Source: Pseudohongiella sp.
Lineage (GTDB): Bacteria > Pseudomonadota > Gammaproteobacteria > Pseudomonadales > Pseudohongiellaceae
Assembly (NCBI GenBank): GCA_030696315.1
Contig: JAUYSM010000074.1
Location: forward strand, 1-64,000
Length of the DNA stretch: 64,000 nucleotides
Direction: 5' to 3'
Position 1 is the stretch's first letter. Every line of letters starts with the position of its first letter. Below are positions 6,394-18,951 of this stretch, piece after piece. The position numbers and the translations under genes are program-made. The notes under the pieces were generated by a model that saw only the letters and a program-made list of their open reading frames with translations, was not told the DNA's origin and made no database searches.

Positions 6394-8046
6394 ATGTTTG
6401 AGCTGACCCGCCTGTATAACCGCTGCCTTGAAAATCGGATTGTGCAGAGTATGTTGACTGTGCTGGCCATCTGGTTCTTGTTTACGGCTTTTGTGGTGCC
6501 CAACCGCGTCGATTGGATTCAGTGGTGGTATCTGTTTTATTTTCCCGTTGAGGCCGTGATTTTTCCTTTGTTGCTGATGGTACGGGGGCGGGCAGGGGCC
6601 TGGATACTCAGCGTGAGCAGCATCGTTATCGCCGCGGGATTGATATTCAGAATCGCGGATATGGCTGCGCATATGATTTTTGCCAGGGCGTTTAATCCTG
6701 TGCTGGACGCCTACCTGTTGAGTAATGGTTTTCATCTGCTGGGCTCGAGCATCGGTTATATCGGCGCGGTGCTGGCATCTGCTCTGATGGTGTTGGCGGT
6801 GATGCTGATTTTTGTTGCAAGCTGGCTTTCACTTGCACGCGTCAGGGCCGTGTTGTGGGCAGTTCCGCGACGCTGGATGTTTGGATCATTAGTCGCAGTG
6901 CTGGGCCTGTGGAGTGTTATGTCACTCGCTGGCTCTGCAAAAGCATCGCGTTATTTTCACGACCAACTGGTTTCGCACGTACGCACTGCCTTCAATAGCA
7001 TGCTTGAGTTGCGCGCATTCCGTGAAATTGTCAATGAAGATGTCTACACCCATGTGCCGGGAGACCAGCTGTTTGGCGCCTTACAAGGCAAAGATGTGTT
7101 GGTGATTTTTGTGGAATCGTATGGTCGGGTCTTATTGGACAGCCCGCGTTATGCGCCGGCTATTCGCCCGCTGCTGGAGGACGCGACAAACAGACTTGCT
7201 GCTCAGGGGTATGCATCATCAAGCGCCTTTCTGGCCTCTTCCACAATTGGGGGATTAAGCTGGCTGGCACATGGCACCGCCATGTCGGGATTATGGATTG
7301 ATAGTCAATTACGCTATGACGCGTTGATGATGAGTCAGCGGCCTACCCTGATCAGTCTATTCCGGCGCGCTGGCTGGCGAACACTGGGGGTGATGCCTGC
7401 CATCACCCTGGCTTGGCCGGAAGGACAGTATTTTGGCTATGACCACATTTATGATGCCGCCGCGCTTGAGTACCAGGGGCTGCCTTTTAATTATGTGACC
7501 ATGCCAGATCAATTTACGCTGGCGCGGTTCCAGCAACAAGAGCGCGATCCTGTTGACCGTCAGCCGGTCATGGCGGAACTGGCGTTGATTTCGTCGCATG
7601 CGCCATGGACGCCCATTCCTGATGTGATTGACTGGAGTCTGATAGCGGATGGCACAGAGTTTAATGAGCAAGCCCAGCGTGGCCCCAGAACAGACCAGGT
7701 CTGGCAGGATCTGGATCTGTTAAAAAGTCAGTATCGGGATTCGGTGGAATACGTCGTAAATACGCTGGTGTCCTACATCACGCAATATGGCGATGACAAT
7801 CTGGTCCTGCTGATACTGGGCGACCATCAGCCCATGCCATTGATTGCCGAAGGAGCCTCGGCGCCCGATGTGATGGTTCATATTGTCAGCTCTGATCCCG
7901 CCGTCATGCACGCGGTTGAAGCGTGGCAATGGACACCTGGCATGTTGCCGGCAGATGATGCTCCCGTGTGGCGTATGGATAGCCTCAGAGATCGTTTTAT
8001 TGAGACTTTTTCTCCGGGAATGCCAGCACGTCCAGATGCCCGATGA
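6394..8046 (+). CDS. Sulfatase/LtaS-like membrane hydrolase or transferase
   Basis: Alkaline-phosphatase-superfamily protein, 550 residues. About five hydrophobic helices lie between residues 20 and 190, followed by a periplasmic catalytic domain. FVESYGR near residue 238 and GDHQP near 478 match metal-binding motifs of the sulfatase/phosphoglycerol-transferase fold; the serine/threonine cluster in ASSTIGGLSW near 285 probably holds the nucleophile. This architecture is shared by lipoteichoic acid synthases, OpgB and lipid A phosphoethanolamine transferases. The substrate is open: sulfate ester, phosphoglycerol or phosphoethanolamine. Its 3' end overlaps the convergent methyltransferase by 50 bases, placing it at the edge of the pterin/lipid cluster. 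Confidence 0.8.
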   Translation: MFELTRLYNRCLENRIVQSMLTVLAIWFLFTAFVVPNRVDWIQWWYLFYFPVEAVIFPLLLMVRGRAGAWILSVSSIVIAAGLIFRIADMAAHMIFARAFNPVLDAYLLSNGFHLLGSSIGYIGAVLASALMVLAVMLIFVASWLSLARVRAVLWAVPRRWMFGSLVAVLGLWSVMSLAGSAKASRYFHDQLVSHVRTAFNSMLELRAFREIVNEDVYTHVPGDQLFGALQGKDVLVIFVESYGRVLLDSPRYAPAIRPLLEDATNRLAAQGYASSSAFLASSTIGGLSWLAHGTAMSGLWIDSQLRYDALMMSQRPTLISLFRRAGWRTLGVMPAITLAWPEGQYFGYDHIYDAAALEYQGLPFNYVTMPDQFTLARFQQQERDPVDRQPVMAELALISSHAPWTPIPDVIDWSLIADGTEFNEQAQRGPRTDQVWQDLDLLKSQYRDSVEYVVNTLVSYITQYGDDNLVLLILGDHQPMPLIAEGASAPDVMVHIVSSDPAVMHAVEAWQWTPGMLPADDAPVWRMDSLRDRFIETFSPGMPARPDAR

Positions 8047-8803
8047 CACATCGACCATCATGCAGGTGCGATAGACGATACGCTTCCCAGTCATCAAGTA
8101 CCTGGCTGTCGAGCCCGTAGTTTTCCGACACTGCCGCTTTGATGCCGCGCACAAGATCGGCAACGAGCAGCGCATGCTCTGGCCCCAGGTGCCACGCGCT
8201 GTCAGCAAGCTGCACAGTATACCCGGCCGACTCAAGTGACTTGCTCAGATAGGCTGCGCTTTGTGGGCCCAGTGCAGGGCCCATGCCTTTGTCGCGTTGT
8301 TGATCCAGATTAAACGCCTGCAAGACAGCATCATCCAAAGGATGAGCCGGAGACCAAAGTGTGCGGCCATCATAGTTAAGCGCTGCATACAAAGCCGTTG
8401 ACTGTCGCGCTATTCTTTCCACAAGACCATCAACAACATCGCGCGAAACCAGATCGTACAGGGCTGAGGCAGACAACAGTTTTGCTGCGCCCAGTGGCAG
8501 CGCATCTATCTCCAATAAGTCAGCCTCATAATCCTCAATGATTTCTTGCTGGCCATGCCGCCGCAGTGCTTCATTCAGTAACGCCGGATCATGATCAACC
8601 AGCCGCCAGACGCATTGATGTGCACCCAGGGCAGTCAGCGCGCGCAATGTAGAACCGGTGCCTGAGCCAAGGTCAACCACCACCGGTGAAATGTCTGCGT
8701 CTGCCTGCAGATAATCGACGACTTGTGTTGCCAATGAGTGGTCCCGGGCGGCTCGGTCAGCCGGTTCGCGCAGATCCAGCCAGTTGATTGAAAATCCACT
8801 CAT
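7997..8803 (-). CDS. Class I SAM-dependent methyltransferase (cluster)
   Basis: Methyltransferase of about 268 residues with a Rossmann SAM-binding motif VVDLGSGTGSTLRAL near residue 41 and an acidic LVDHDPALL strand after it. I chose the ATG at 8803 because it overlaps the stop of the upstream glycosyltransferase in the arrangement ATGA, typical of translational coupling, and because homologous-looking sequence starts there; the frame is open a further 21 codons upstream. The methyl acceptor is unknown. The coupling to a glycosyltransferase and the neighbouring GTP-derived heterocycle genes suggest a small metabolite or lipid head group. Its last 50 bases run antisense to the end of the sulfatase-like gene. 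Confidence 0.82.
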   Translation of the reverse strand: MSGFSINWLDLREPADRAARDHSLATQVVDYLQADADISPVVVDLGSGTGSTLRALTALGAHQCVWRLVDHDPALLNEALRRHGQQEIIEDYEADLLEIDALPLGAAKLLSASALYDLVSRDVVDGLVERIARQSTALYAALNYDGRTLWSPAHPLDDAVLQAFNLDQQRDKGMGPALGPQSAAYLSKSLESAGYTVQLADSAWHLGPEHALLVADLVRGIKAAVSENYGLDSQVLDDWEAYRLSHLHDGRCVIGHLDVLAFPEKKSQ

Positions 8804-9867
8804 ACTGAGGGCCTCGCAGTTATAGTCATAAACAGATTTGCTAATGTACTTGCAGTGGATTGCCAATCTGGCAGTTGTTTGCCAGCGGCTTGCGCGCCCG
8901 CTCTCAACAGCTCAAAACGCGGCCGGTCAGTCAGTAATTCATGGAGCGTTAGCGCCAGATTGGTGGCGTTGTCCGCTGGAACCAGCACACCCGCAGTCTC
9001 CGGGACTACATCGGGTACCGCGCCCGCGCGGGCGGCCACAACCGGCAAACCAAACGAAAGTGCTTCCGCAAACACCATGCCATAGCCTTCAAAACGTGAG
9101 GGTAAAACAAACAGATCAGCTGTTGAGTATTCGGCAGTCAAATCAGCGACGCTGCCAACAAAGCTGATACGTTCGCCAAGCTCCAATGCGTCAGTCATTT
9201 TTTTTAGTCTGGCTGCCCAGGCCGGATCAAACTCTGACCCACCCACAAACCGCGCATGCCATGAAAGATTGGTGATGCGCGATAACGCATCGATCAACAC
9301 GTCATGCGCTTTGCGCTGGGTGAGGGTGGCAACCGTCAGCAATACTGGAGGTTGGCCTTGGCAGGCGGCAAATATTTGTTGCTGTGTGCCAGGCAGCGCA
9401 ACGGTCAATTTGCCGATTGGGACATTGTAGGCTTTATGTAAAAGTTCGGCGGTAGCTCGGCTGGTAACCACCACGGCAACAGAGCAATCCAAGGCAATTT
9501 TTTCAGTTTTAAACAAGGCGCTTTGTTGTTCAACAGACAGACCCGCTTCAAACGCTAGTGGATGGTGACACAGGGCAATCAGATGCAAGCGGTGATGCTC
9601 AGCTTGAGCAATGTCATCCATGGCGCCCCATGCAAGGCCATCAGCCAACACCAGAGCGCCATCTGGAATTGCGGCCATGCGCAGCGCCGCGTCAGCCAAG
9701 GCCTCGCGATCAGGAAAAGGGAACTTTGCAGACAGCTCGATATGATGGACTGTCATTCCAAGTGCTTCCAGTCCGGCCTTCAAGCGGCGGTCATATTCAT
9801 AACCACCCGTCAGAGTCGACAATCTGCCCGGAATCACAAAATAGAGGTCAATGTTCAATACATACAT
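8800..9867 (-). CDS. Glycosyltransferase family 4 (GT-B) (cluster)
   Basis: Retaining GT-B glycosyltransferase. The N terminus LYFVIPGRLSTLTGGYEYD has the GG loop that binds the acceptor side. The C-terminal half carries LLTVATLTQRKAHDVLIDAL near residue 190 and the nucleotide-sugar motif FVLPSRFEGYGMVFAEALSFGLPVVAARAG (split across residues 258-287), including the E-x7-E pattern of family 4. I favour the ATG at 9867, giving about 355 residues, since the 15 codons upstream look untranslated; the ribosome site is weak. It is divergent from ribA with roughly 190 bases between them, which should hold both promoters. Donor and acceptor unknown. Confidence 0.85.
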   Translation of the reverse strand: MYVLNIDLYFVIPGRLSTLTGGYEYDRRLKAGLEALGMTVHHIELSAKFPFPDREALADAALRMAAIPDGALVLADGLAWGAMDDIAQAEHHRLHLIALCHHPLAFEAGLSVEQQSALFKTEKIALDCSVAVVVTSRATAELLHKAYNVPIGKLTVALPGTQQQIFAACQGQPPVLLTVATLTQRKAHDVLIDALSRITNLSWHARFVGGSEFDPAWAARLKKMTDALELGERISFVGSVADLTAEYSTADLFVLPSRFEGYGMVFAEALSFGLPVVAARAGAVPDVVPETAGVLVPADNATNLALTLHELLTDRPRFELLRAGAQAAGKQLPDWQSTASTLANLFMTITARPSV

Positions 9868-10059
9868 CCAAAGTGCAAAAAGCAGGATAAATACCGGACA
9901 GCACTGTGACAATCTATGAAATTCAAGTCAACAGCAAAACCAATTGCCGGGGTACAAGCGTATAAGCCACAAGTTGTATGCACGCTAGATTGTCTATTGG
10001 ACTCACTACTGGAGGCGGTAGCTTGCCTTAAAAAAGGCTGCACCGTAGTATGCCGCACT

Positions 10060-10767
10060 ATGTCTAAACTCAGCGCTTTCAAAAAATCTTCTATGAAGAC
10101 ATCAGTCACACGGATGACGTCCGGGCGGATACCCACCGAGCACGGTGATTTTCAATTGGTGTACTACACCAACACGCTGGACAATAAAGAACATCTCGCA
10201 TTTTGTATGGGGGATGTCAGCAATTGTGAAGACGTACTTGTTCGTGTGCATTCCGAGTGTTTTACCGGGGATGTCATGGGCTCGCGCCGTTGCGATTGTG
10301 GTGAACAATTGCAGCGCTCCATGGCTATGGTTGCCAGTGAAGGGAAAGGCGTTATTGTCTATCTTCGACAGGAAGGCCGTGGCATTGGTCTGATGGCAAA
10401 ACTGGATGCCTATAATTTGCAGGATCAAGGCTACGATACAGTGGATGCCAATCTGATGCTGGGACACCAGGCTGACGCTCGCGAATATTCATTGGCGGCC
10501 TGTATTCTGGAGGAGCTTGGGATCAAGTCCGTTCGGTTGATGACTAACAATCCATTAAAGATAAGTGCGCTGCAGTCTGAAGGTGTCATCGTCAATACAC
10601 GCGTTTCACTCGAGGCGCCGGTGAATGCTGATAATGAAGCTTACCTGTTGACCAAGGTCAGGCGTATGGATCATATGCTGCCACTGCAGTCATTTACGCC
10701 TGCTGGTCTGAAACCTGTGCCACCTGTGTTTGTCAGGGATGTGCATGACTCTCAATCAGCAAATTGA
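10060..10767 (+). CDS. ribA: GTP cyclohydrolase II (cluster)
   Basis: Opens the imidazole ring of GTP to give 2,5-diamino-6-ribosylamino-pyrimidinone phosphate, formate and pyrophosphate. Zinc cysteines are in CFTGDVMGSRRCDCGEQL, the catalytic stretch is YLRQEGRGIGL, and TNNPLK lies near the end. It lacks the DHBP-synthase domain found in RibBA fusions. The frame is open from 9916, but the first 48 codons resemble nothing, so I place the start at 10060 or at the ATG at 10093; neither has a clear ribosome site. It overlaps the RibD-like gene by 23 bases. It could serve riboflavin synthesis, but its neighbours suggest a dedicated branch using the GTP-derived pyrimidine or a pterin. Confidence 0.9.
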   Translation: MSKLSAFKKSSMKTSVTRMTSGRIPTEHGDFQLVYYTNTLDNKEHLAFCMGDVSNCEDVLVRVHSECFTGDVMGSRRCDCGEQLQRSMAMVASEGKGVIVYLRQEGRGIGLMAKLDAYNLQDQGYDTVDANLMLGHQADAREYSLAACILEELGIKSVRLMTNNPLKISALQSEGVIVNTRVSLEAPVNADNEAYLLTKVRRMDHMLPLQSFTPAGLKPVPPVFVRDVHDSQSAN

Positions 10768-11452
10768 GCAATGGCTTGGTGAGCGCTTGTTGGTGTTTTC
10801 CCAGGCGGATCGACCGTTTGTGACCTTAAGTTATGCACAGAGCTGGGACGGCAGTATTACCCTGCGCTCTGGCAAATCCCTGGCACTGAGCGGTGATGAG
10901 TCTGCATGTTTGACACACCAGCTGCGCAGTCTGCACACTGGCATTCTGGTTGGCATCGGGACCGTGCTGTCTGATGATCCGCGATTGAACGTGCGTTTGT
11001 GTGCTGGGCCAGACCCACAACCCATTGTTTTGGATGCCCATTTACGTTTTCCTCCCAGTGCCCGTTTGTGCCACTTGCCTGATAAACGTTGCTGGGTGCT
11101 GACCAGTGCTGGTACCAATGTGCCGCACGCTGCGAACCTGGAGATCATTCGATTACCGGGCGACAGCGAAGGCCGTGTTTGTCTGATAGCGGCCTTGCAA
11201 GAACTCAAAAAGCGTGGCATCGACAGTTTGATGGTGGAAGGCGGCGCCAAAGTGATCAGCGCGTTTCTGAGCCATAAATTGGTAGACGCCATGGTGGTGA
11301 CGGTTGCGCCGCGTTTGGTAGGCGGCTACAAAGCGGTGACAGATCTGGGTTTTGATACCGTGCTTGAATTGCCTGAAATTTCACCCTGGCACAGCGGCAG
11401 ACTGGGAGAAGATCTGATTATGTGGGGCGATGTGCGGTACCAGACAACATGA
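10745..11452 (+). CDS. RibD-type reductase domain protein (cluster)
   Basis: NADPH-dependent reductase of the RibD C-terminal/dihydrofolate-reductase-like fold, 235 residues, with no deaminase domain. The signature RPFVTLSYAQSWDGSI, the LRSLHTGILVGIGTVLSDDPRLNVR block and the late VEGGAKVISAFL motif are all visible. In riboflavin synthesis this domain reduces the ribosylamino side chain to ribityl. Start ATG at 10745, inside the end of ribA; an in-frame ATG at 10730 is possible. Its stop overlaps the next start as ATGA. A reductase acting directly on the product of the preceding cyclohydrolase, or on a pterin derived from it, is a reasonable inference. Confidence 0.85.
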   Translation: MTLNQQIEQWLGERLLVFSQADRPFVTLSYAQSWDGSITLRSGKSLALSGDESACLTHQLRSLHTGILVGIGTVLSDDPRLNVRLCAGPDPQPIVLDAHLRFPPSARLCHLPDKRCWVLTSAGTNVPHAANLEIIRLPGDSEGRVCLIAALQELKKRGIDSLMVEGGAKVISAFLSHKLVDAMVVTVAPRLVGGYKAVTDLGFDTVLELPEISPWHSGRLGEDLIMWGDVRYQTT

Positions 11453-12483
11453 CTTTTTTAAACCCTCAAGCGACCACAACACATCAGCTTTGGTTTGCAG
11501 CACCTCACGAGGTCGAGATCCGACAGGTCGTGCTTGATGCACCAGTTGCCGATCAAATATTGGTCAAGACGCTTTACTCAGCAGTCAGTGCGGGCACAGA
11601 AATGCTGGTGTATCGAGGTCAGATACCCGAGCAGATGGCATTGGATGCCAGTCTGGACACGCTGCAGTCGCAAGCATGTTATCCGCTGCAATATGGTTAC
11701 GCCTGTGTTGGTGAAGTGATTGCGCGTGGACCCGATGTCGACGCGCAGTGGATAAACAAACGGGTGTTTTCGTTTCAACCCCATGCCTCACATTTTTTAA
11801 CAAAACCAGATCAACTTATTGTCATACCCGATGATATCGCTGCCGATGCAGCAGTGTTCCTGGCGAACATGGAAACCGCGGTCAGCCTGGTTCAGGATGG
11901 CGCTCCCATATTGGGTGAACAGGTTGTTGTGTTGGGGCAAGGCATTGTGGGTTTATTGTTATCGGGGATTCTGGCCCAGTATCCATTAACATCGCTGGTG
12001 ACGCTGGATAGCTATGAACGTCGTCGTGCAATGTCTCTGACTCTGGGCGCCACCGCCAGTTTTGATCCGCGCGCAGGTATGGGAGATTTGCGTCGAACGC
12101 TGTCTTGGCCAAAGGGTGCAGATTTGATCTATGAAGTCAGTGGTGTGCCTGAGGCGTTAAATGGTGCGATCAGTCTGAGCGGTTTTGACAGTCGTGTTGT
12201 GATCGGATCCTGGTACGGCAATAAAGCCGCAGTGATTGCGCTGGGTGGCGATGCCCATCGTAATCGATTAAAAATCAGTACCAGCCAGGTCAGCAGTCTG
12301 GCGTCAAATCTCAGCGCGCGCTGGGACAAAACCCGCCGATTTGGGGTTGCCTGGCAAATGATCCGACAACTTTGCCCTCGGCAGTTGATTACACACCGTT
12401 ACCCCTTAAATGACGCCCGTTTGCTTTACCAAGGCCTGGACAAAAATCCTGATCAGGTTCTGCAAGCGGTGTTTGAGTATTAA
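11449..12483 (+). CDS. BchC-like medium-chain dehydrogenase without zinc cysteine (cluster)
   Basis: Medium-chain dehydrogenase/reductase, 344 residues. A GroES-like N-terminal domain is followed by a nucleotide-binding domain with VVVLGQGIVGLLLSGILAQ near residue 160. Where zinc alcohol dehydrogenases have GxCGTD, this protein has AVSAGTEMLVYRG, so the catalytic zinc cysteine is absent, and the structural zinc lobe is missing too. The SAGTE pattern resembles bacteriochlorophyllide dehydrogenase BchC and its relatives. ATG at 11449 overlaps the previous stop (ATGA). It probably oxidises or reduces an intermediate bound to the cluster's heterocycle or sugar. No chlorophyll genes are nearby. 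Confidence 0.8.
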   Translation: MTFLNPQATTTHQLWFAAPHEVEIRQVVLDAPVADQILVKTLYSAVSAGTEMLVYRGQIPEQMALDASLDTLQSQACYPLQYGYACVGEVIARGPDVDAQWINKRVFSFQPHASHFLTKPDQLIVIPDDIAADAAVFLANMETAVSLVQDGAPILGEQVVVLGQGIVGLLLSGILAQYPLTSLVTLDSYERRRAMSLTLGATASFDPRAGMGDLRRTLSWPKGADLIYEVSGVPEALNGAISLSGFDSRVVIGSWYGNKAAVIALGGDAHRNRLKISTSQVSSLASNLSARWDKTRRFGVAWQMIRQLCPRQLITHRYPLNDARLLYQGLDKNPDQVLQAVFEY

Positions 12484-12529
12484 CAAAAGTCTTCGCAGTT
12501 TGTGCGTATTTTTTAGTTCAAGGAATGTT

Positions 12530-12907
12530 ATGTATACCGTTGCCGTCACCAAAGATTTTATTGCCAGTCACTTTTTGATTGGAGGCGATTGGGGGAGCGA
12601 AAATTTCCCCCACGCTCACCACTATGTGGCTGAAATCAGTATCGAAGCCGCCGAGCTGGATAAACACGGATATCTGGTGGATATTGTTGATATCGAAGCA
12701 GCTTTGGACAGCATTGTTAAGGATTTCAAAGACAGCCTGTTAAACGATAAACCTGAGTTTGCGGGATTGAATCCAAGCATTGAACACTTCAGCCGCATCA
12801 TCTGCGAGCGCATGCTGGCGAATATTCACCCGCCTGGCAGTGGTATTTTGCAGGTGAAACTCTGGGAAAACGCGACGTGTTGGGCTGCCTATAAAAAGGC
12901 CTTTTAA
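12530..12907 (+). CDS. Divergent 6-pyruvoyl-tetrahydropterin synthase/QueD homologue (cluster)
   Basis: T-fold protein of 125 residues. Zinc-ligand histidines are retained: SHFL near residue 14 and PHAHHY near 26-31. The catalytic cysteine of PTPS and QueD, four residues before the first H of HxH, is replaced by glutamate (SENFPHAH), as described for PTPS-III enzymes. The usual catalytic Asp-His pair before LN (LDHxxLN) reads FKDSLLN, so it is lost. The C-terminal pterin-anchoring glutamate is present in KLWENATC. AAGGA (12520-12524) precedes the ATG by five bases. It probably acts on, or binds, a pterin-like substrate with altered chemistry. Its stop overlaps that of the convergent UPF0104 gene by four bases. 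Confidence 0.85.
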   Translation: MYTVAVTKDFIASHFLIGGDWGSENFPHAHHYVAEISIEAAELDKHGYLVDIVDIEAALDSIVKDFKDSLLNDKPEFAGLNPSIEHFSRIICERMLANIHPPGSGILQVKLWENATCWAAYKKAF

Positions 12908-13896
12908 CGCAGAAATCGCGCACACAACAGTCCTGCAATCAGCACAAGCGCATCGCGAAAGCGCATGATTGCAATGAGTCCAAGGGCGGCGCTGGCGGGA
13001 AGACCCAGCGCCTGGAAGGACCAGAATACAGATGCTTCCAGTGTGCCAATGCCCCCTGGAAGCGGCAGCAAAAGTGCCAGTCTCATGGCGACCAGAATCA
13101 GGATCAACTCACGGGCTTGCAGCTGGACTTCGAAAAAACCAACCACCAGCCACATTTCAAAAACAATCAGAGCCCAGCCTGCAAATGAATACATCAGCGC
13201 TGCGAACAACGCAGGTTTTTGAGTGCGAATGGCGGTTCTGAGGTCACTGCCCAGAGATTGCCAATGATCGTCCAGTGACGTCAGTCGGGGGCTACTCAAC
13301 CAGCGTGCACTGAGTTTTTCCAATTGTCTGGATATCAATGCCGGTTGTTTGAACGCCAAGACCGCCAGCGCAGACAGCAGCACTAACGCCGCAGAGATGA
13401 TCCACAGTATGCGTTGCCAGTTACTGGTATCACTTTCAAGTCCGTTAATAGAAGGGACCCACAGCATCAACAGGCTCACGCCCAGTATCAGCATCAGAAA
13501 GTTGATCCAGAGCTCAAAAAAACGATCCAGCCCCAGTGCAAGCACTGCGCGATGAATCGCCATACCGGTGTGTTTGTATAGCCAATAGATTTGCAGGGGT
13601 TCGCCGCCAAATTGCGGGCCAGGTGTTATAAAACTGACAGTTTGGCCTGCTTGTCGAATCAGTAACAGTCTGATAAAACCGACTGATCCGCCCACCATGC
13701 GCGTGAGTGTCAACCAACGCACGTTGCCAACAACAATCACCAGAATATTCACCGCCAACCATGCACTCCAATCGACCCATGCCAATTCACGGAGTGTTAT
13801 GCCGATTTCAGCCAGTGGCATCTGACTTAATGTCCAGACAACTAACGCCAGGGCCACAATCCAGAGCACGGTACCAGTCCAACGATACTGTGGCAT
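12904..13896 (-). CDS. YbhN/UPF0104 (LPG synthase transmembrane-like) membrane protein (cluster)
   Basis: Integral membrane protein of 330 residues with about eight helices, matching the lysylphosphatidylglycerol-synthase transmembrane domain family (YbhN, UPF0104). Family cues are the VGNVRWLTL stretch after the second helix, FITPGPQFGGEPLQIYWL near residue 92 and LPLPGGIGTLEA near 292. Members without the aminoacyl-transferase domain are thought to handle polyprenyl or lipid substrates, possibly as flippases. Its start overlaps the stop of the CDP-alcohol phosphatidyltransferase by one base (TGATG), so the two are co-translated. A role in moving the lipid product of the cluster across the membrane is an inference. 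Confidence 0.82.
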   Translation of the reverse strand: MPQYRWTGTVLWIVALALVVWTLSQMPLAEIGITLRELAWVDWSAWLAVNILVIVVGNVRWLTLTRMVGGSVGFIRLLLIRQAGQTVSFITPGPQFGGEPLQIYWLYKHTGMAIHRAVLALGLDRFFELWINFLMLILGVSLLMLWVPSINGLESDTSNWQRILWIISAALVLLSALAVLAFKQPALISRQLEKLSARWLSSPRLTSLDDHWQSLGSDLRTAIRTQKPALFAALMYSFAGWALIVFEMWLVVGFFEVQLQARELILILVAMRLALLLPLPGGIGTLEASVFWSFQALGLPASAALGLIAIMRFRDALVLIAGLLCARFLR

Positions 13897-15032
13897 CAGG
13901 CACCATCCTGTCGGTTGACCCAGTGATCATCCGCCTGCCACAGGCTGAAGCGGCCGCAGCCAAGCAGTAAGATGGCAATCGAGATAAACAAACACAAGGC
14001 AAACGGCGCTTGATCAAGGGGTAAAGGGCTGCGCCACGCCAATACCATCAGCATCAACATCGCGCCGGCGCGCCCGGCAAGCCCGGATACCATCATCGCA
14101 GCGGATAACACCAGAACAAACAGAATAAATCTATGTGCGTCAGACGCGTCTGCCCAAGTAAACACGAGTGTTATAAGCAACACAAACCGGACCACCGGCA
14201 GCAAGTATGTGTTGGTGAAAGTTTTGAGCCGGGCAAAAATGCTGCCGCCATCGGTTGCATACGGATCAAGACGACCACTGACCACCCACCAATCCACCAG
14301 AAATCCCGCCAGCAGCGGTAACATAAAACCGAATCCTGCCAACACAGTGACCTCAGGATTAAACGGTGGCCACAGCACAACAGCAACATACGCCATCTGG
14401 AATCCGGCCAGTGTTCGGCGCAATTCGCTGGGAGCCAGAGGGTAAACGACATGTTGCTTGTGTTTTCGGATTTTAATGCCGATCACAAAAAGGTAGTAGG
14501 CGACACTCACCAGCAGGTAGGTCCAGTGGATTTTCCCAAGTTGCAAGGCCAGCAATGGCGCGACCATGAGACCCAAGGCGTCAAACACGGTGTCAAGTTC
14601 AGCACCGAGCTGAGTACTTTGTTGAGTTTTGCGCGCTACAAAGCCATCAAGTCGATCAAAAATGGCGGCGATGGAGTATGCCGCCGACGCAGCCCAGACC
14701 ACAGCAGCCGAGTTTTCCAGGAGCGCTGGTGTGACCAACAGGCCTGCACACGCGGCGATCAGCCAGCCACGTGTGATCGTCATCCGGTTGGCCCAGCCGA
14801 GTTTGGTGAACAGGGCTGTGTCGGCATTGGCACGGTTCAGTGCCAGTCGTTTGGAGGTTTGTGTAATCACCAGCAGCCAGAAAAATGTACTGACAATAAA
14901 CCAGGAGAAACCTGTGGTGGGTGTGGTGCTGGCCCACAGAACCAGTGCCAATACAGCAATCGTGACAAAACCCGATAAACCTATTCTGCTTGTCTCACGC
15001 TGCAGTTGTCGAATTATCGGGCTTTGCGTCAT
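13896..15032 (-). CDS. CDP-alcohol phosphatidyltransferase (cluster)
   Basis: Integral membrane enzyme of 378 residues that transfers a phosphatidyl or phospho-alcohol group from a CDP-linked donor. The full family signature D-x2-D-G-x2-A-R-x9-G-x3-D-x3-D is seen in DRLDGFVARKTQ...GAELDTVFD near residues 144-169. It is longer than the typical 180-200 residues: two extra helices precede the catalytic core and several follow it. The donor and acceptor are not known. It is coupled to the UPF0104 gene downstream and lies 12 bases after the MAPEG gene, so all three probably share a transcript, facing the pterin-type genes tail to tail. Confidence 0.85.
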   Translation of the reverse strand: MTQSPIIRQLQRETSRIGLSGFVTIAVLALVLWASTTPTTGFSWFIVSTFFWLLVITQTSKRLALNRANADTALFTKLGWANRMTITRGWLIAACAGLLVTPALLENSAAVVWAASAAYSIAAIFDRLDGFVARKTQQSTQLGAELDTVFDALGLMVAPLLALQLGKIHWTYLLVSVAYYLFVIGIKIRKHKQHVVYPLAPSELRRTLAGFQMAYVAVVLWPPFNPEVTVLAGFGFMLPLLAGFLVDWWVVSGRLDPYATDGGSIFARLKTFTNTYLLPVVRFVLLITLVFTWADASDAHRFILFVLVLSAAMMVSGLAGRAGAMLMLMVLAWRSPLPLDQAPFALCLFISIAILLLGCGRFSLWQADDHWVNRQDGA

Positions 15033-15044
15033 AGCAGGGCCAGA

Positions 15045-15431
15045 TTAACCGGCGTAACTCATAACTGCCCCGGCAATGCCGCCCAGCGCAAGAATGACCG
15101 ACGGGAGAAACGTCAACATAAAACCCAACTCACGTGACTTGGGTTCTTTGACGTAGGCGTGCAGATACAGCTGGCGGCCGATAATAAACACCACACCCAG
15201 GCCTGCGGCGATTTCTGCGCTGATGTAGGTGGCAAAGATAAATATGGAGGGTAAAAAGAATACAAGACTTTCCAGGGTATTCATGTGCACACGGTAATAA
15301 CGTTCAAAAATCGGATCGCCTGACACGGCAGGTGCTTCCACTTTGTATTTCATGCGAGCCCGTCCCACCAGTGCACCAAACACGGTGTACTGAATCAATG
15401 CTGCTAACACCACAATTGCTACCAGTTCCAT
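15045..15431 (-). CDS. MAPEG family membrane protein
   Basis: Small membrane protein of 128 residues with four predicted helices, of the MAPEG family (membrane-associated proteins in eicosanoid and glutathione metabolism). The characteristic FERYYRVHMNTLESLVFFLP segment, with its Arg, Asn and Glu in the second helix region, is at residues 43-62, and the GRQLYLHAYV motif follows near 104. Bacterial members may have glutathione transferase or peroxidase activity. AAAGGA about six bases upstream of ATG supports the start. It is the first gene of a three-gene leftward unit with the CDP-alcohol phosphatidyltransferase; whether it belongs to the same pathway is uncertain. Confidence 0.85.
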   Translation of the reverse strand: MELVAIVVLAALIQYTVFGALVGRARMKYKVEAPAVSGDPIFERYYRVHMNTLESLVFFLPSIFIFATYISAEIAAGLGVVFIIGRQLYLHAYVKEPKSRELGFMLTFLPSVILALGGIAGAVMSYAG

Positions 15432-15567: not shown

Positions 15568-16431
15568 ATGTCCGAGTCCCGGAAAGTACCAGAAGCCAGC
15601 GTTGATGATATTGCTGCCTACTACAATAAGAATACCCGTCTGTTTCTGGATCTTGGGGGCAGTGGCGACGTGGCAGCTATCCACCGCGCCATCTGGGCGC
15701 CAGGTGTGACCAATAAAACGGAGGCGTTTAATTATCTGAATGTACAAGTCGCACACGCCTTACAGGCTGGTATCAAAGAGCAGGGAGCACACGTGCTGGA
15801 TCTGGGGTGCGGGGTGGGAGGGACATCTACCTGGCTCGCATCAGTATTGAATGCAGATGTGACGGGAGTTACCATCAGTGCCGAGCAACAGAAGCTGGCA
15901 ACACAACGTGCCGAACAGCTGGGACTGAGCAACAGAGTGCGGTTTGTGCAGGGCGATTTTGCGGCGATGCCTAAGCTCGAGGCAGCTGATGCAGCATTTG
16001 CGATTGAGTCTTTTGTCCACGCCCGCTCGGCAGATACATTTTTTGAGATGGCTGCCCGTCATATAAAACCTGGCGGTTGTTTGGTGATTTGTGATGACTT
16101 TTTAAATTCGTCCATCCCTAATCAAGAACAAGGTGCTGCCAACGACTGGATTCAACGTTTTCAGCGCGGCTGGCATTTGAACAATCTGGTCACCCCCGAT
16201 CAGACAATCACTAGCGCTTCACGCGTTGGCTTCAAACTCCTGCACGCCAGCAACCTGTCGGCGTATACCCGGTCCTTCAATCCGATTGTATTGTTTCTGG
16301 TCAGCCAGCTTACGCGTTTGCCATTGCCCTGGGCCTATTGGCAAAACATGGCGGGTGGCACCGCGTTACAGATTTGCCTTCGGCGCGGCTGGACTCAATA
16401 TCATGTGCTGGTCTGGCAACATGAGGGATAA
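15568..16431 (+). CDS. SAM-dependent methyltransferase, sterol/UbiE-type
   Basis: Methyltransferase of 287 residues. Motif I is VLDLGCGVGGTSTWLAS near residue 76; the GVTISAEQQKLA strand-helix is typical of the family that methylates sterols, tocopherols and other lipids or secondary metabolites. A CLVICDDFL post-motif strand follows near 170. The first 60 residues (a YYNxNTRLFLDLG stretch) match the usual N-terminal extension. The acceptor is unknown. It is divergent from the MAPEG gene with about 135 bases between, and 93 bases before the DUF305 fusion. A link to the adjacent heterocycle/lipid cluster is possible but not shown. Confidence 0.83.
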   Translation: MSESRKVPEASVDDIAAYYNKNTRLFLDLGGSGDVAAIHRAIWAPGVTNKTEAFNYLNVQVAHALQAGIKEQGAHVLDLGCGVGGTSTWLASVLNADVTGVTISAEQQKLATQRAEQLGLSNRVRFVQGDFAAMPKLEAADAAFAIESFVHARSADTFFEMAARHIKPGGCLVICDDFLNSSIPNQEQGAANDWIQRFQRGWHLNNLVTPDQTITSASRVGFKLLHASNLSAYTRSFNPIVLFLVSQLTRLPLPWAYWQNMAGGTALQICLRRGWTQYHVLVWQHEG

Positions 16432-16524
16432 GTAGTCCTGAAATCTATGTTGTTTTGCCAGTGGATTCCAGATCATTTCCGTTGTAGCCTTCCGTTTAAA
16501 TTGGAACGGTTTACGGAGATAACC

Positions 16525-18951
16525 ATGTTGCGTCATACACGCTTGTCATTAGCAATTTCAGCTGTTTCCCTGTTTGCTGCAGGTCAGGCTTTTGCCCAGC
16601 CACCGATTATCCAACCAGGCGCGCCCGGTCAGGTCAGTCGTCAGATCAGTATCGAGGAGGCTTCTGCCTTAGCCGGCACGCGCGTCACTGACGCCGATGT
16701 CACGTTTATGCAGGACATGATCATGCACCACGATCAGGCTGTTCAGATGACAGCCATGATCGAAGGACGCAGTCAGCGTGATGAGGTTCGCCAGTTGGGC
16801 GAACGCATTTCAGCCTCTCAAGATGATGAAATGCAGTTTATGGTGGATTGGCTGGAAGAGCAGGGTCAACCTGTCATGCCGCCGGCCGCTGATCGCTCGG
16901 CACATGCTCATCACTCAGGTCACTCAACCATGGCTGGCATGTTGACTGATGCAGAGTTGGCAAATTTGCGCGCGGCCCAAGGTAATCAGTTTGACACACT
17001 GTTTATGCAGTTCATGATCAAACACCACCAGGGCGCCATCACCATGGTGGATGAATTGCTCGCCAAACAAGGCACCGCGCAGGATCCCGTGCTGTTTGAA
17101 TTTATTTCTGAGGTCAAGACCGAACAGAACAGCGAGATTGAGCGCATGACAGCCATGCTGGCGACGTTTTCGCCCGATCCTCGTGTCGGACTTGGCGCGG
17201 GCTATTACGACGCGGGTCAAGCGTCAATGAACATGAATCTGCTGGCGGCTTTGCCCAAACCGGATGGTTTTTTTGATCCAGCCAACCCGATGGGCTTGCC
17301 TATGAGCCGGCTTAATCAGGCAGGCGAGGCGGCTGGTGAAGATGATGAAGAAGCTGAGCCAAGGCCCAGTCTGCTCGATTTTGCTAACACTGACATGGCG
17401 TTTTCAGGCGACGTGATGATCGCGGGTAACTATCACGGTTTTAATGCCTACGATATCAGCAATCCGTTGCGTCCTGTGCACTTGAGCTCGGTCGTTTGTC
17501 CGGGCGGTCAGGGCGACGTCTCAGTGGTTGGTAATCTGTTGATCATGTCAGTTGAGCAGAATCGTGGTCGTCTGGATTGCGGGCTGGAAGGTGTGGCAGA
17601 ACGCGTCAGTGGTGAACGTTTCCGTGGTATCCGTATTTTTGATGTCAGTGATTTCAGAATGCCTATTCAGGTCGCAGCCGTTCAAACCTGCCGTGGATCT
17701 CATACACATACCGTCGTGAAAGATCCAGATGACGATGGCAAATTGCTGGTCTACATTTCAGGTACCAGTTATGTGCGCCCGGGCGAAGAGCTGGAAGGTT
17801 GCATTGATGAGTCGCCGTTTAAGGATGAAGATTCAGCACGATTCCGCATTGAGGTTGTTGAGATCCCGGTAAACAACCCGGAAGATTCACGTATTGTCAG
17901 TCGGCCTCAGGTGTTTGCCGATCCGGTGACCGGGGTAATTGCATCCTTGTGGGAAGGCGGCGACCATGGTCCGGATACTAACCGTACCGGTGAAACCAAT
18001 CATTGCCATGACATCACTGCGTTCCCGCAACTGGGCGTGGCGGCAGGTGCCTGTTCGGGTAACGGTATTCTGTTTGATATTTCAGATCCTTTGAATCCAC
18101 AGCGCCTGGATCAGGTGATTGACACGGGTTTTGCCTATTGGCACTCGGCAACTTTCAATAATGATGGCACCAAGGTGTTATTCACCGATGAGTGGGGCGG
18201 TGGTTCGCGCGCCCGTTGTCGTTCATTCGATCCAATGAATTGGGGCGGCAATGCCATTTATGACATCGTGGATGGCAAGCTTGAGTTCCGTGCTCACTAT
18301 AAAATGCCTGCGCCGCAATCTGAGGAAGAGAATTGTGTCGCTCACAATGGTTCGCTGGTGCCGGTGCCGGGCCGCGATATTTTTGTGCAATCCTGGTATC
18401 AGGGTGGCATTTCGGTGATGGATTTTACCGATTCGTCTAACCCGCGGGAAATTGCGTTTTTTGACCGCGGCCCGGTTGATTCAGAAGAGTTGGTGATGGG
18501 TGGCTATTGGTCGTCTTATTGGTACAAAGGTGTGATTTATGGGACGGAGATTGCACGTGGTGTGGATGTGCTTGAGTTGGTGCCGAGTAATTTCCTGTCT
18601 GAAAATGAAATTGCAGCTGCAAATCTGACAGCAACAGCGGTGTTGCACAATCCTCAGCAGCAGCGTCAAATCGATTGGCCGGCAGAGCCGGTTGTAGCTC
18701 TAGCATATATGGATCAGTTGCGGCGCGATGATGCTTTGCCTGCGGCGCAGGATCAGGCGTTGACGGCGGCGTTGGATCGTGCGGCGACGGTGTTTGAGGA
18801 CGGTAATGGTCTGGATGCGGCGGGTGCTGAGCAGTTGGAGGCGTTGGCGGTGTCGTTGGCGGGAAGTGCGGGTGGCTTTGAGGGTATGACTCAGAAGCGT
18901 TATGTGGAGTTGGCGTCTACGGTGCGGGAGATTGCTGCGCGGTTGCGGTGA
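16525..18951 (+). CDS. Exported DUF305-DUF305-LVIVD repeat protein
   Basis: Large secreted protein of 808 residues. Start ATG at 16525, with GGAG at 16515-16518, followed by a clear signal peptide ending AFAQP. Two DUF305 units come first: FMQDMIMHHDQAVQM near residue 68 and FMQFMIKHHQGAITMV near 165, each with the M-x2-HH-x2-A helix that resembles a metal site. A beta-propeller of LVIVD-like repeats follows from about residue 285 (GFNAYDISNPLRPVHLSS, FDVSDFRMPIQVAAV, FDISDPLNPQRLDQV, VMDFTDSSNPREIAF). The C-terminal 110 residues are alpha-helical and alanine-rich. Both domains are uncharacterised biochemically; a periplasmic or surface metal-linked role is a guess. The frame is open 26 codons upstream of the chosen start. 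Confidence 0.85.
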   Translation: MLRHTRLSLAISAVSLFAAGQAFAQPPIIQPGAPGQVSRQISIEEASALAGTRVTDADVTFMQDMIMHHDQAVQMTAMIEGRSQRDEVRQLGERISASQDDEMQFMVDWLEEQGQPVMPPAADRSAHAHHSGHSTMAGMLTDAELANLRAAQGNQFDTLFMQFMIKHHQGAITMVDELLAKQGTAQDPVLFEFISEVKTEQNSEIERMTAMLATFSPDPRVGLGAGYYDAGQASMNMNLLAALPKPDGFFDPANPMGLPMSRLNQAGEAAGEDDEEAEPRPSLLDFANTDMAFSGDVMIAGNYHGFNAYDISNPLRPVHLSSVVCPGGQGDVSVVGNLLIMSVEQNRGRLDCGLEGVAERVSGERFRGIRIFDVSDFRMPIQVAAVQTCRGSHTHTVVKDPDDDGKLLVYISGTSYVRPGEELEGCIDESPFKDEDSARFRIEVVEIPVNNPEDSRIVSRPQVFADPVTGVIASLWEGGDHGPDTNRTGETNHCHDITAFPQLGVAAGACSGNGILFDISDPLNPQRLDQVIDTGFAYWHSATFNNDGTKVLFTDEWGGGSRARCRSFDPMNWGGNAIYDIVDGKLEFRAHYKMPAPQSEEENCVAHNGSLVPVPGRDIFVQSWYQGGISVMDFTDSSNPREIAFFDRGPVDSEELVMGGYWSSYWYKGVIYGTEIARGVDVLELVPSNFLSENEIAAANLTATAVLHNPQQQRQIDWPAEPVVALAYMDQLRRDDALPAAQDQALTAALDRAATVFEDGNGLDAAGAEQLEALAVSLAGSAGGFEGMTQKRYVELASTVREIAARLR

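Follow-up and report, generated by a model that had tools for sequence, protein, structure and literature searches.

The window, a stretch of 64,000 nucleotides from the start of contig JAUYSM010000074.1 of Pseudohongiella sp. assembly GCA_030696315.1 (genome size 3.96 Mb, of which it is contig 67), contains a compact cluster of nine genes between positions 6394 and 15032, in the order SULF (+), MT (-), GT4 (-), RibA (+), RibD_C (+), ADH (+), PTPS-like (+), YbhN-like (-) and CDPA (-). The genes almost certainly serve one dedicated pathway, which is present in two domains of life and whose product is unassigned; a pterin-lipid is our best guess. Taken as a whole, the reading towards which we lean slightly leads from GTP to a lipid-linked, glycosylated and probably methylated pterin-like (2-amino-heterocyclic) compound. 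The nine genes are:

6394..8046, plus strand: SULF, predicted LtaS-like phosphotransferase, an LtaS/PbgA/EptC-like membrane protein of the alkaline-phosphatase superfamily (N-terminal helices, then the catalytic domain)
7997..8866, minus strand: MT, S-adenosylmethionine-dependent methyltransferase, putative tailoring cassette (PF13649, E 1.9e-4, below cut-off)
8800..9912, minus strand: GT, glycosyltransferase of family GT4, putative tailoring cassette (PF13692, E 9e-30)
9916..10767, plus strand: RibA, dedicated GTP cyclohydrolase II, a RibA paralogue (TIGR00505, above cut-off)
10730..11452, likely start 10745, plus strand: RibD_C, reductase without deaminase domain (PF01872)
11422..12483, likely start 11449, plus strand: ADH (or BCHC), BchC-like dehydrogenase of the medium-chain dehydrogenase/reductase type, apparently without catalytic zinc ligands (TIGR01202, 71.7 bits)
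12530..12907, plus strand: PTPS-like T-fold protein of the GGDWGxEN...PHAH type (PF01242, 91.7 bits)
12904..13896, minus strand: YbhN-like/LPG_synthase_TM membrane protein, candidate flippase (PF03706, E 3.5e-33; TIGR00374, above cut-off)
13896..15032, minus strand: CDPA, CDP-alcohol phosphatidyltransferase (PF01066, above cut-off)

Conservation and co-inheritance of the cluster

The ADH served as query in a scan that yielded 73 named loci, to which plasmid and whole-genome loci were added; removal of near-duplicates and fragments reduced 98 loci to 91. All were chosen by their ADH and many contigs are short, so misses are inflated in the counts. Among the 91 non-redundant loci the PTPS-like gene was found in 85, GT4 in 83, RibD_C in 76, MT in 63, RibA in 57, CDPA in 56, the YbhN-like gene in 52 and SULF in 29. 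The hosts include Gamma- and Alphaproteobacteria, Chloroflexi, Neomarinimicrobiota, Opitutales, Actinomycetota and haloarchaea, and the closest named relative in the ADH scan is a Pseudohongiella metagenome-assembled genome (L033, 97% over the ADH). Scattered homologues, which the initial annotation had named as grounds for giving up a common pathway, were thus not what was found: the neighbourhood is conserved over 91 loci and two domains of life.

A sample of 276 gammaproteobacterial genomes, drawn twice alike, provides a less biased check: the ADH (E ≤ 1e-25) is present in 17, from 13 families. The stretch around the ADH of the 16 other than the window's own contains PTPS in 14, GT and RibD_C in 13 each (two of the latter being RibA fusions), CDPA and MT in 11 each and RibA in 6; no PTPS was found near the ADH in L131, a short contig, or in L139. 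Haloarchaea have the ADH in 86 of 145 genomes (E ≤ 1e-40), and 20 loci picked from these 86 contain PTPS in 18, a GT4-type gene in 17, MT in 12 and both GTP cyclohydrolase IIa and CDPA in 9. A pathway core so distributed over haloarchaea, gammaproteobacteria and other phyla has had no product assigned to it. A mobile cluster for a secreted secondary metabolite, of the deazapurine or antibiotic type, would fit the patchy occurrence in gammaproteobacteria, the ADH matches on 34 plasmid records and the transporters near single clusters. It is nevertheless a very improbable explanation, given that the ADH is present in the majority of the haloarchaeal genomes and the cluster retained in two genomes of 1.0–1.1 Mb (G180 and G279), and that no exporter or resistance gene was recognised in the families recurring in at least four loci, five of which are unidentified.

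The two membrane-side genes co-occur with the ADH. In the window's family, all 26 genomes with the ADH have CDPA and none of the 9 without it does (Fisher p 1.4e-8, a value too small owing to shared descent); SULF is found in 24 of the 26 (it is missing in G020 and G027) and none of the 9. Outside the family, G053 and G037 have an ADH match and no CDPA match at the same threshold; in G053, which also has SULF, a divergent CDPA adjoins the ADH. In the class-wide sample, 9 of the 17 genomes with the ADH have SULF, against 0 of the 259 without it (p 1e-12). This co-occurrence is not due to linkage, since among the 8 positives other than the window SULF is located on another contig in 6 and 1.9 Mb away in 1.

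Pairwise protein distances among ADH, PTPS, RibD_C, RibA and CDPA are correlated with Spearman coefficients (rho) of 0.78–0.91; those of CDPA against the other four give 0.83–0.89, and the YbhN-like protein gives 0.67–0.81 against all five. GT and MT distances follow each other (0.88) and the five proteins much less (0.34–0.57). What counts here is how the two groups differ over one and the same set of loci; GT values would also fall if the GT4 had been misassigned in some loci. This contrast suggests that CDPA was inherited with the GTP-derived enzymes as a core, while GT and MT would form a swappable tailoring cassette. The boundary drawn earlier between a heterocycle unit and a glycolipid unit has therefore to be moved: judged by the distances, CDPA sides with the GTP-derived enzymes, and the exchangeable part appears to be GT with MT. 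That both halves serve one product, earlier a supposition, is supported by the co-occurrence of CDPA and SULF and by the distances. Two unrelated units interlocking by chance, to which the opposite strands in the window might point, are extremely unlikely in view of neighbourhoods with other gene orders in several phyla, the family-wide match of presence and absence, and the distance correlations.

All nine genes first named for the cluster are located at the places and on the strands given. Eight were kept as members, SULF was added, and the MAPEG gene, which comes after CDPA, was removed: among 105 loci compared, many of them short, it was matched only in the near-identical contig L094. The methyltransferase gene at 15568–16431 was likewise rejected, its only close match being in L094 (L085 and L086 give matches of 28–36%), as was the gene at 16447–18951, which adjoins the cluster, encodes a large predicted protein of 834 amino acids and is closely matched only in L094. 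Overlaps of 1–23 bases at nearly all boundaries, as initially described, hold for some of them. When the longest open reading frames are taken (PTPS from the ATG at 12530), 6 of 9 boundaries overlap, by 50, 67, 38, 31, 4 and 1 bases, and gaps of 3, 46 and 12 bases are present; from the downstream ATGs at 10745 and 11449, the RibA/RibD overlap becomes 23 and the RibD/ADH overlap 4 bases. A promoter scan gave one site where 0.5 were expected and is uninformative. A role in anti-phage defence was rejected, as none of the nine proteins matched PADLOC at E ≤ 1e-5. In Chloroflexi clusters (L072, L077, L081, L088, L092 and L093) a small protein of about 118 amino acids recurs, with a weak match to DUF7475 in L088.

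Enzymes of the GTP-derived side

The enzymes of the cluster are not those of vitamin synthesis; they come on top of a canonical set and have active sites of their own. Canonical ribD (with its deaminase domain), ribBA and ribA lie together on contig C113, folE on contig C49 and a standard queD with CxxxHGH on contig C36; synthesis of vitamin B2, folate or queuosine was rejected on this account, in agreement with the initial annotation. The cluster genes do not form a riboflavin operon, riboflavin synthase and RibBA being beside the canonical ribD on C113, and the possibility that they were the only riboflavin copies in the genome is refuted.

RibA scores 253.4 bits against TIGR00505 (cut-off 205.85), which places it in the GTP cyclohydrolase II family. 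It keeps the cysteine motif SECxTGDx5RCDC and the equivalent of Tyr105, which we take to be the zinc ligands and a catalytic residue, respectively (E. coli numbering). A fusion of RibA with RibD_C, showing two Pfam domains, is found in L092, and a single long frame for both in L089, L132 and L133. In haloarchaea, GTP cyclohydrolase IIa, of an unrelated family, can stand in for RibA: it is present in 9 of 20 clusters, 7 times directly beside the ADH, and also in the clusters of two annotated haloarchaeal plasmids. Two haloarchaeal genomes without it in the cluster have one copy each elsewhere.

RibD_C matches PF01872 with 139 bits and has no deaminase domain. It falls below the cut-offs both of bacterial RibD (TIGR00326, 108.2 against 156.35 bits) and of the archaeal and fungal reductases (TIGR01508, 114.3 against 186.45 bits), and at the substrate-selecting position, equivalent to Lys152, it has a serine and thus, as in the latter, no Lys. 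Over 92 aligned sequences, close relatives included, this position is Ser, Cys, Ala, Gln, Thr or Gly and never Lys; in a second, overlapping alignment, which includes a few misaligned frames, Lys is absent from all 83 cluster proteins and present only in the genome's own RibD. According to the passages available of PMC3631187, the lysine of bacterial RibD favours the deaminated substrate; the diamino compound is used by fungi, with Thr at this position, and by archaea, with Asn. The loss of the selecting lysine, together with the absence of the deaminase domain, makes it most likely that the 2-amino group is kept. The product is thus very probably a 2-amino pyrimidine or pterin; the heterocycle derived from GTP that was first proposed stands, and its probable 2-amino character follows from the lysine-less RibD_C used with RibA or GTP cyclohydrolase IIa.

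A redox cofactor of the F420 kind, or some other deazaflavin, would gain from an unpublished claim, mentioned in the part available of PMC5041015, that PTPS-IV is involved when archaea make F420, and from the FGPAQ-type PTPS proteins encoded in operons of the same make-up. In eight annotated regions (the plasmid gene tables are incomplete), the sole gene labelled with F420 encodes an F420-dependent oxidoreductase, in Streptomyces. The F420 precursor is deaminated, with which the retention of the 2-amino group clashes, and such a cofactor is very unlikely to be the product.

The ADH scores 71.7 bits against the BchC profile TIGR01202, far below its cut-off of 291.25, and is not a member of that family. 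In a local alignment that is weak over this stretch, SxxSxGTE and YGYxxVG take the place of the C and GHE of zinc enzymes, and the ADH apparently lacks the catalytic zinc ligands. In the PTPS-like protein, alignment reveals loss of the catalytic Cys and of the Asp-His dyad, while the Glu of the pterin site is kept; we assume these residue roles, including that of the ring-holding Glu, by E. coli numbering. The window protein has the motif GGDWGSEN (type GGDWGxEN), other loci have FGPAQ, and haloarchaea are intermediate. It is distinct from QueD, or PTPS-I (TIGR03367, 44.2 against 89.25 bits, without the Cys of CxxxHGH), from PTPS-III (ENFPHAH in place of ExxHGH) and from PTPS-IV, whose FGPAQ is present in similar operons in L030, L108–L111 and L113. 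A scan of four PTPS and three ADH proteins from the clusters gave no score that reached an NCBIfam cut-off. The closest solved structure to the PTPS-like protein is that of SCO6650 (PDB entry 3D7J, E 3e-9), which presumably lacks zinc and activity.

In the Streptomyces fungicidicus cluster (L110), RibA (17596–18255) has a Met at the Tyr105 position, where all other aligned cluster RibA sequences covering it have Tyr; we take SCO6655 to carry the same Tyr-to-Met change. A creatininase-family gene is located near the FGPAQ-type clusters of L110, L136, L142 and L143. A role for it as a deformylase, compensating for a RibA with a formylated product, was rejected: L136 and L143 have both Tyr and the creatininase, and in L110, which combines the latter with Met, the protein is nearer to MftE than to ArfB (L110 being the one scanned of the four loci).

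Membrane proteins and the probable lipid link

CDPA belongs to the CDP-alcohol phosphatidyltransferases, with 64.9 bits against PF01066 (cut-off 22) and an intact DxxDGxxARx8Gx3Dx3D motif. Its predicted structure has a pLDDT (predicted local distance difference test) score of 91.6, and phosphatidylglycerophosphate (PGP) synthase is the only match at probability 1.00 (E 0.025, template-modelling (TM) score 0.68 on target length). Arg88 is invariant in 34 of 34 aligned rows, and Arg189, Arg205 and Arg206 are conserved in 30, 33 and 31 of them; these arginines would suit a phosphorylated acceptor. The YbhN-like/LPG_synthase_TM gene recurs with both types of PTPS.

For SULF, no Pfam family reaches 0.001. 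The AlphaFold2 model (pLDDT 88.5) has LtaP (PDB entry 4uop) as its best Foldseek match (E 2.8e-9, TM scores 0.39 and 0.51), followed by LtaS, PbgA, MCR-1, GacH and EptC. A GDHxP motif is present, and E241, D477 and H478 are invariant; by comparison with LtaS, we take these residues to form the metal site. The model points to an LtaS-like enzyme with putative headgroup-phosphotransferase activity.

The product is probably linked to a lipid. The alternative is a soluble glycosylated, phosphorylated pterin, for which CDPA would join two soluble parts by a phosphodiester and the YbhN-like protein would be accessory. Charged pterins have been reported from halophiles and pterin glycosides are found in cyanobacteria; some CDP-alcohol transferases do link soluble alcohols (NF041135, a weak match), the pathway core is common in haloarchaea, and YbhN is found in only 52 of the 91 loci. 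This alternative is less easily reconciled with the restriction of SULF, in the class-wide sample, to ADH-positive genomes, as LtaS-like relatives take headgroups from lipids; with the recurrence of LPG_synthase_TM alongside both PTPS types; and with the resemblance, albeit weak, of CDPA to PGP synthase above all others. We consider it unlikely, though clearly the strongest of the alternatives.

Several other genes recur near the cluster or near unlinked SULF. An opgH gene is located within 10 kb of the ADH in nine loci, one of them alphaproteobacterial. YceI-type lipocalin genes are located downstream of CDPA in L114, L141, L142, L145 and L146, and also occur in L078 and L135. Unlinked SULF in L116–L119 (G031, G016, G023 and G032) adjoins a GH17+GT2 glucan-synthase-like gene, of which that in L118 was scanned against Pfam. 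The opgH and GH17+GT2 neighbours are no more than suggestive of a link to periplasmic glucan: opgGH and yceI are close together in the E. coli chromosome, so that inherited synteny may explain part of it. Because glucan genes are found near the cluster or near unlinked SULF, a glucan is a candidate acceptor of the phospho-headgroup, albeit a doubtful one. An inositol-monophosphatase-type gene, for a possible phosphatase, flanks the cluster in 6 loci and in Palleronia.

In L120–L124, from five genomes of the window's genus, unlinked SULF is paired with an FkbM-type methyltransferase gene. The two small genomes mentioned above (G180 with L146 and G279 with L145; 96–99% complete) keep ADH, PTPS, GT, MT, CDPA, RibD_C and the YbhN-like gene, with YceI, O-methyltransferase and rhodanese-type genes beside CDPA.

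Proposed pathway and comparison with known systems

From the genes we infer the following substrates, products and order of steps. RibA, or GTP cyclohydrolase IIa in haloarchaea, would open GTP towards 2,5-diamino-6-ribosylamino-pyrimidinone 5'-phosphate, and RibD_C would reduce the ribosyl moiety to ribityl, with no deamination, in the fungal and archaeal order. The zinc-less ADH might then re-oxidise the ribityl chain, most likely at C2', and the PTPS-like T-fold protein could help the new ketone to react with the 5-amino group. The ring so closed would be of the dihydroneopterin type, the two proteins together taking the place of GTP cyclohydrolase I and its one-step chemistry. This re-oxidation and ring closure, deduced from the chemistry, is a tentative part of the scheme. 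CDPA would couple the side chain, either phosphorylated or free, with CDP-diacylglycerol (in haloarchaea, CDP-archaeol), GT4 and MT would decorate the product, and the YbhN-like protein would move the lipid across the membrane. In Gammaproteobacteria, SULF may finally pass the phospho-headgroup to an extracytoplasmic acceptor, perhaps periplasmic glucan.

Several observations weigh against this scheme. The product itself has not been observed as a compound; since the cell already has folE, it needs no further route to that pterin, so the product may be another isomer or no pterin, and GGDWG-type and FGPAQ-type loci might yield different products. Of the 91 loci, 34 gave no RibA and 35 no CDPA, partly through cut contigs, and no GTP cyclohydrolase IIa is near the ADH in 11 of the 20 haloarchaeal loci. 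The fold match of CDPA is not significant (E 0.025, with none at E ≤ 0.001), and the enzyme might produce a soluble phosphodiester. Of the 17 ADH-positive genomes, 8 lack SULF; it was also not found in the haloarchaeal loci, and its distances follow the core only moderately (rho 0.46–0.70). Shared host history inflates rho in general, opgH, a likely bystander, reaching 0.92 with the ADH over 9 loci. Finally, the occurrence of creatininase does not track the Tyr-to-Met change of RibA.

A wider reading, which we hold possible as a whole though rather less probable than its opposite, is that a class of membrane lipids not described before, with a pterin-type, redox- or light-active headgroup, is common to bacteria and haloarchaea; that its ring is made from GTP independently of cyclohydrolase I, a reductase and a dehydrogenase replacing the Amadori step; and that sugars and methyl groups are specific to lineages, many gammaproteobacteria shifting the phospho-headgroup to a periplasmic acceptor. 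If the proposed pathway holds, there would be a new class of GTP-derived lipids and a second way of building the pterin ring, as well as a function for the orphan PTPS-IV group and for genes whose homology-based labels now read riboflavin, queuosine or alcohol dehydrogenase.

The earlier statement that no characterised pathway has this set of genes holds in that none was found, and no published description of the gene combination or of related compounds was found either, although subscription papers were largely outside coverage and absence is unproven. Part of the linkage, PTPS-IV with RibA and RibD_C, and the structure 3D7J are already public: in the passages available of PMC5445326, from 2017, PF00925 (RibA) and PF01872 (RibD_C) are neighbours of a PTPS-IV group of 561 sequences with FGPAQ. 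The passages on PTPS-IV in that paper (PMC5445326) are without the ADH, GT4, MT, CDPA, YbhN and LtaS-like partners. This group of COG0720 and SCO6650, the solved structure closest to the window protein, are among the nearest known systems: FGPAQ members are found in operons like the window cluster, while the window protein has GGDWGSEN...PHAH.

The archaeal and fungal branch of riboflavin synthesis likewise uses RibA or GTP cyclohydrolase IIa and a reductase without the bacterial Lys, but the cluster has no deaminase, lumazine synthase or riboflavin synthase, and a canonical rib locus is located separately. With the queuosine and folate routes (FolE and QueD) it has in common a T-fold relative of PTPS with the pterin-binding Glu; FolE, QueE and QueC are absent, however, and CxxxHGH and the Asp-His dyad are lost. 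CDPA has the same motif as PgsA and phosphatidylinositol-phosphate synthase and a weakly similar core fold, but differs by extra helices at both ends and its own conserved set of Arg, Gln and Asp, and is below all NCBIfam cut-offs shown. SULF, in turn, has the fold and GDHxP motif of the LtaS/LtaP, OpgB and EptC-type transferases, from which it differs in being confined to ADH-positive genomes in both genome samples.

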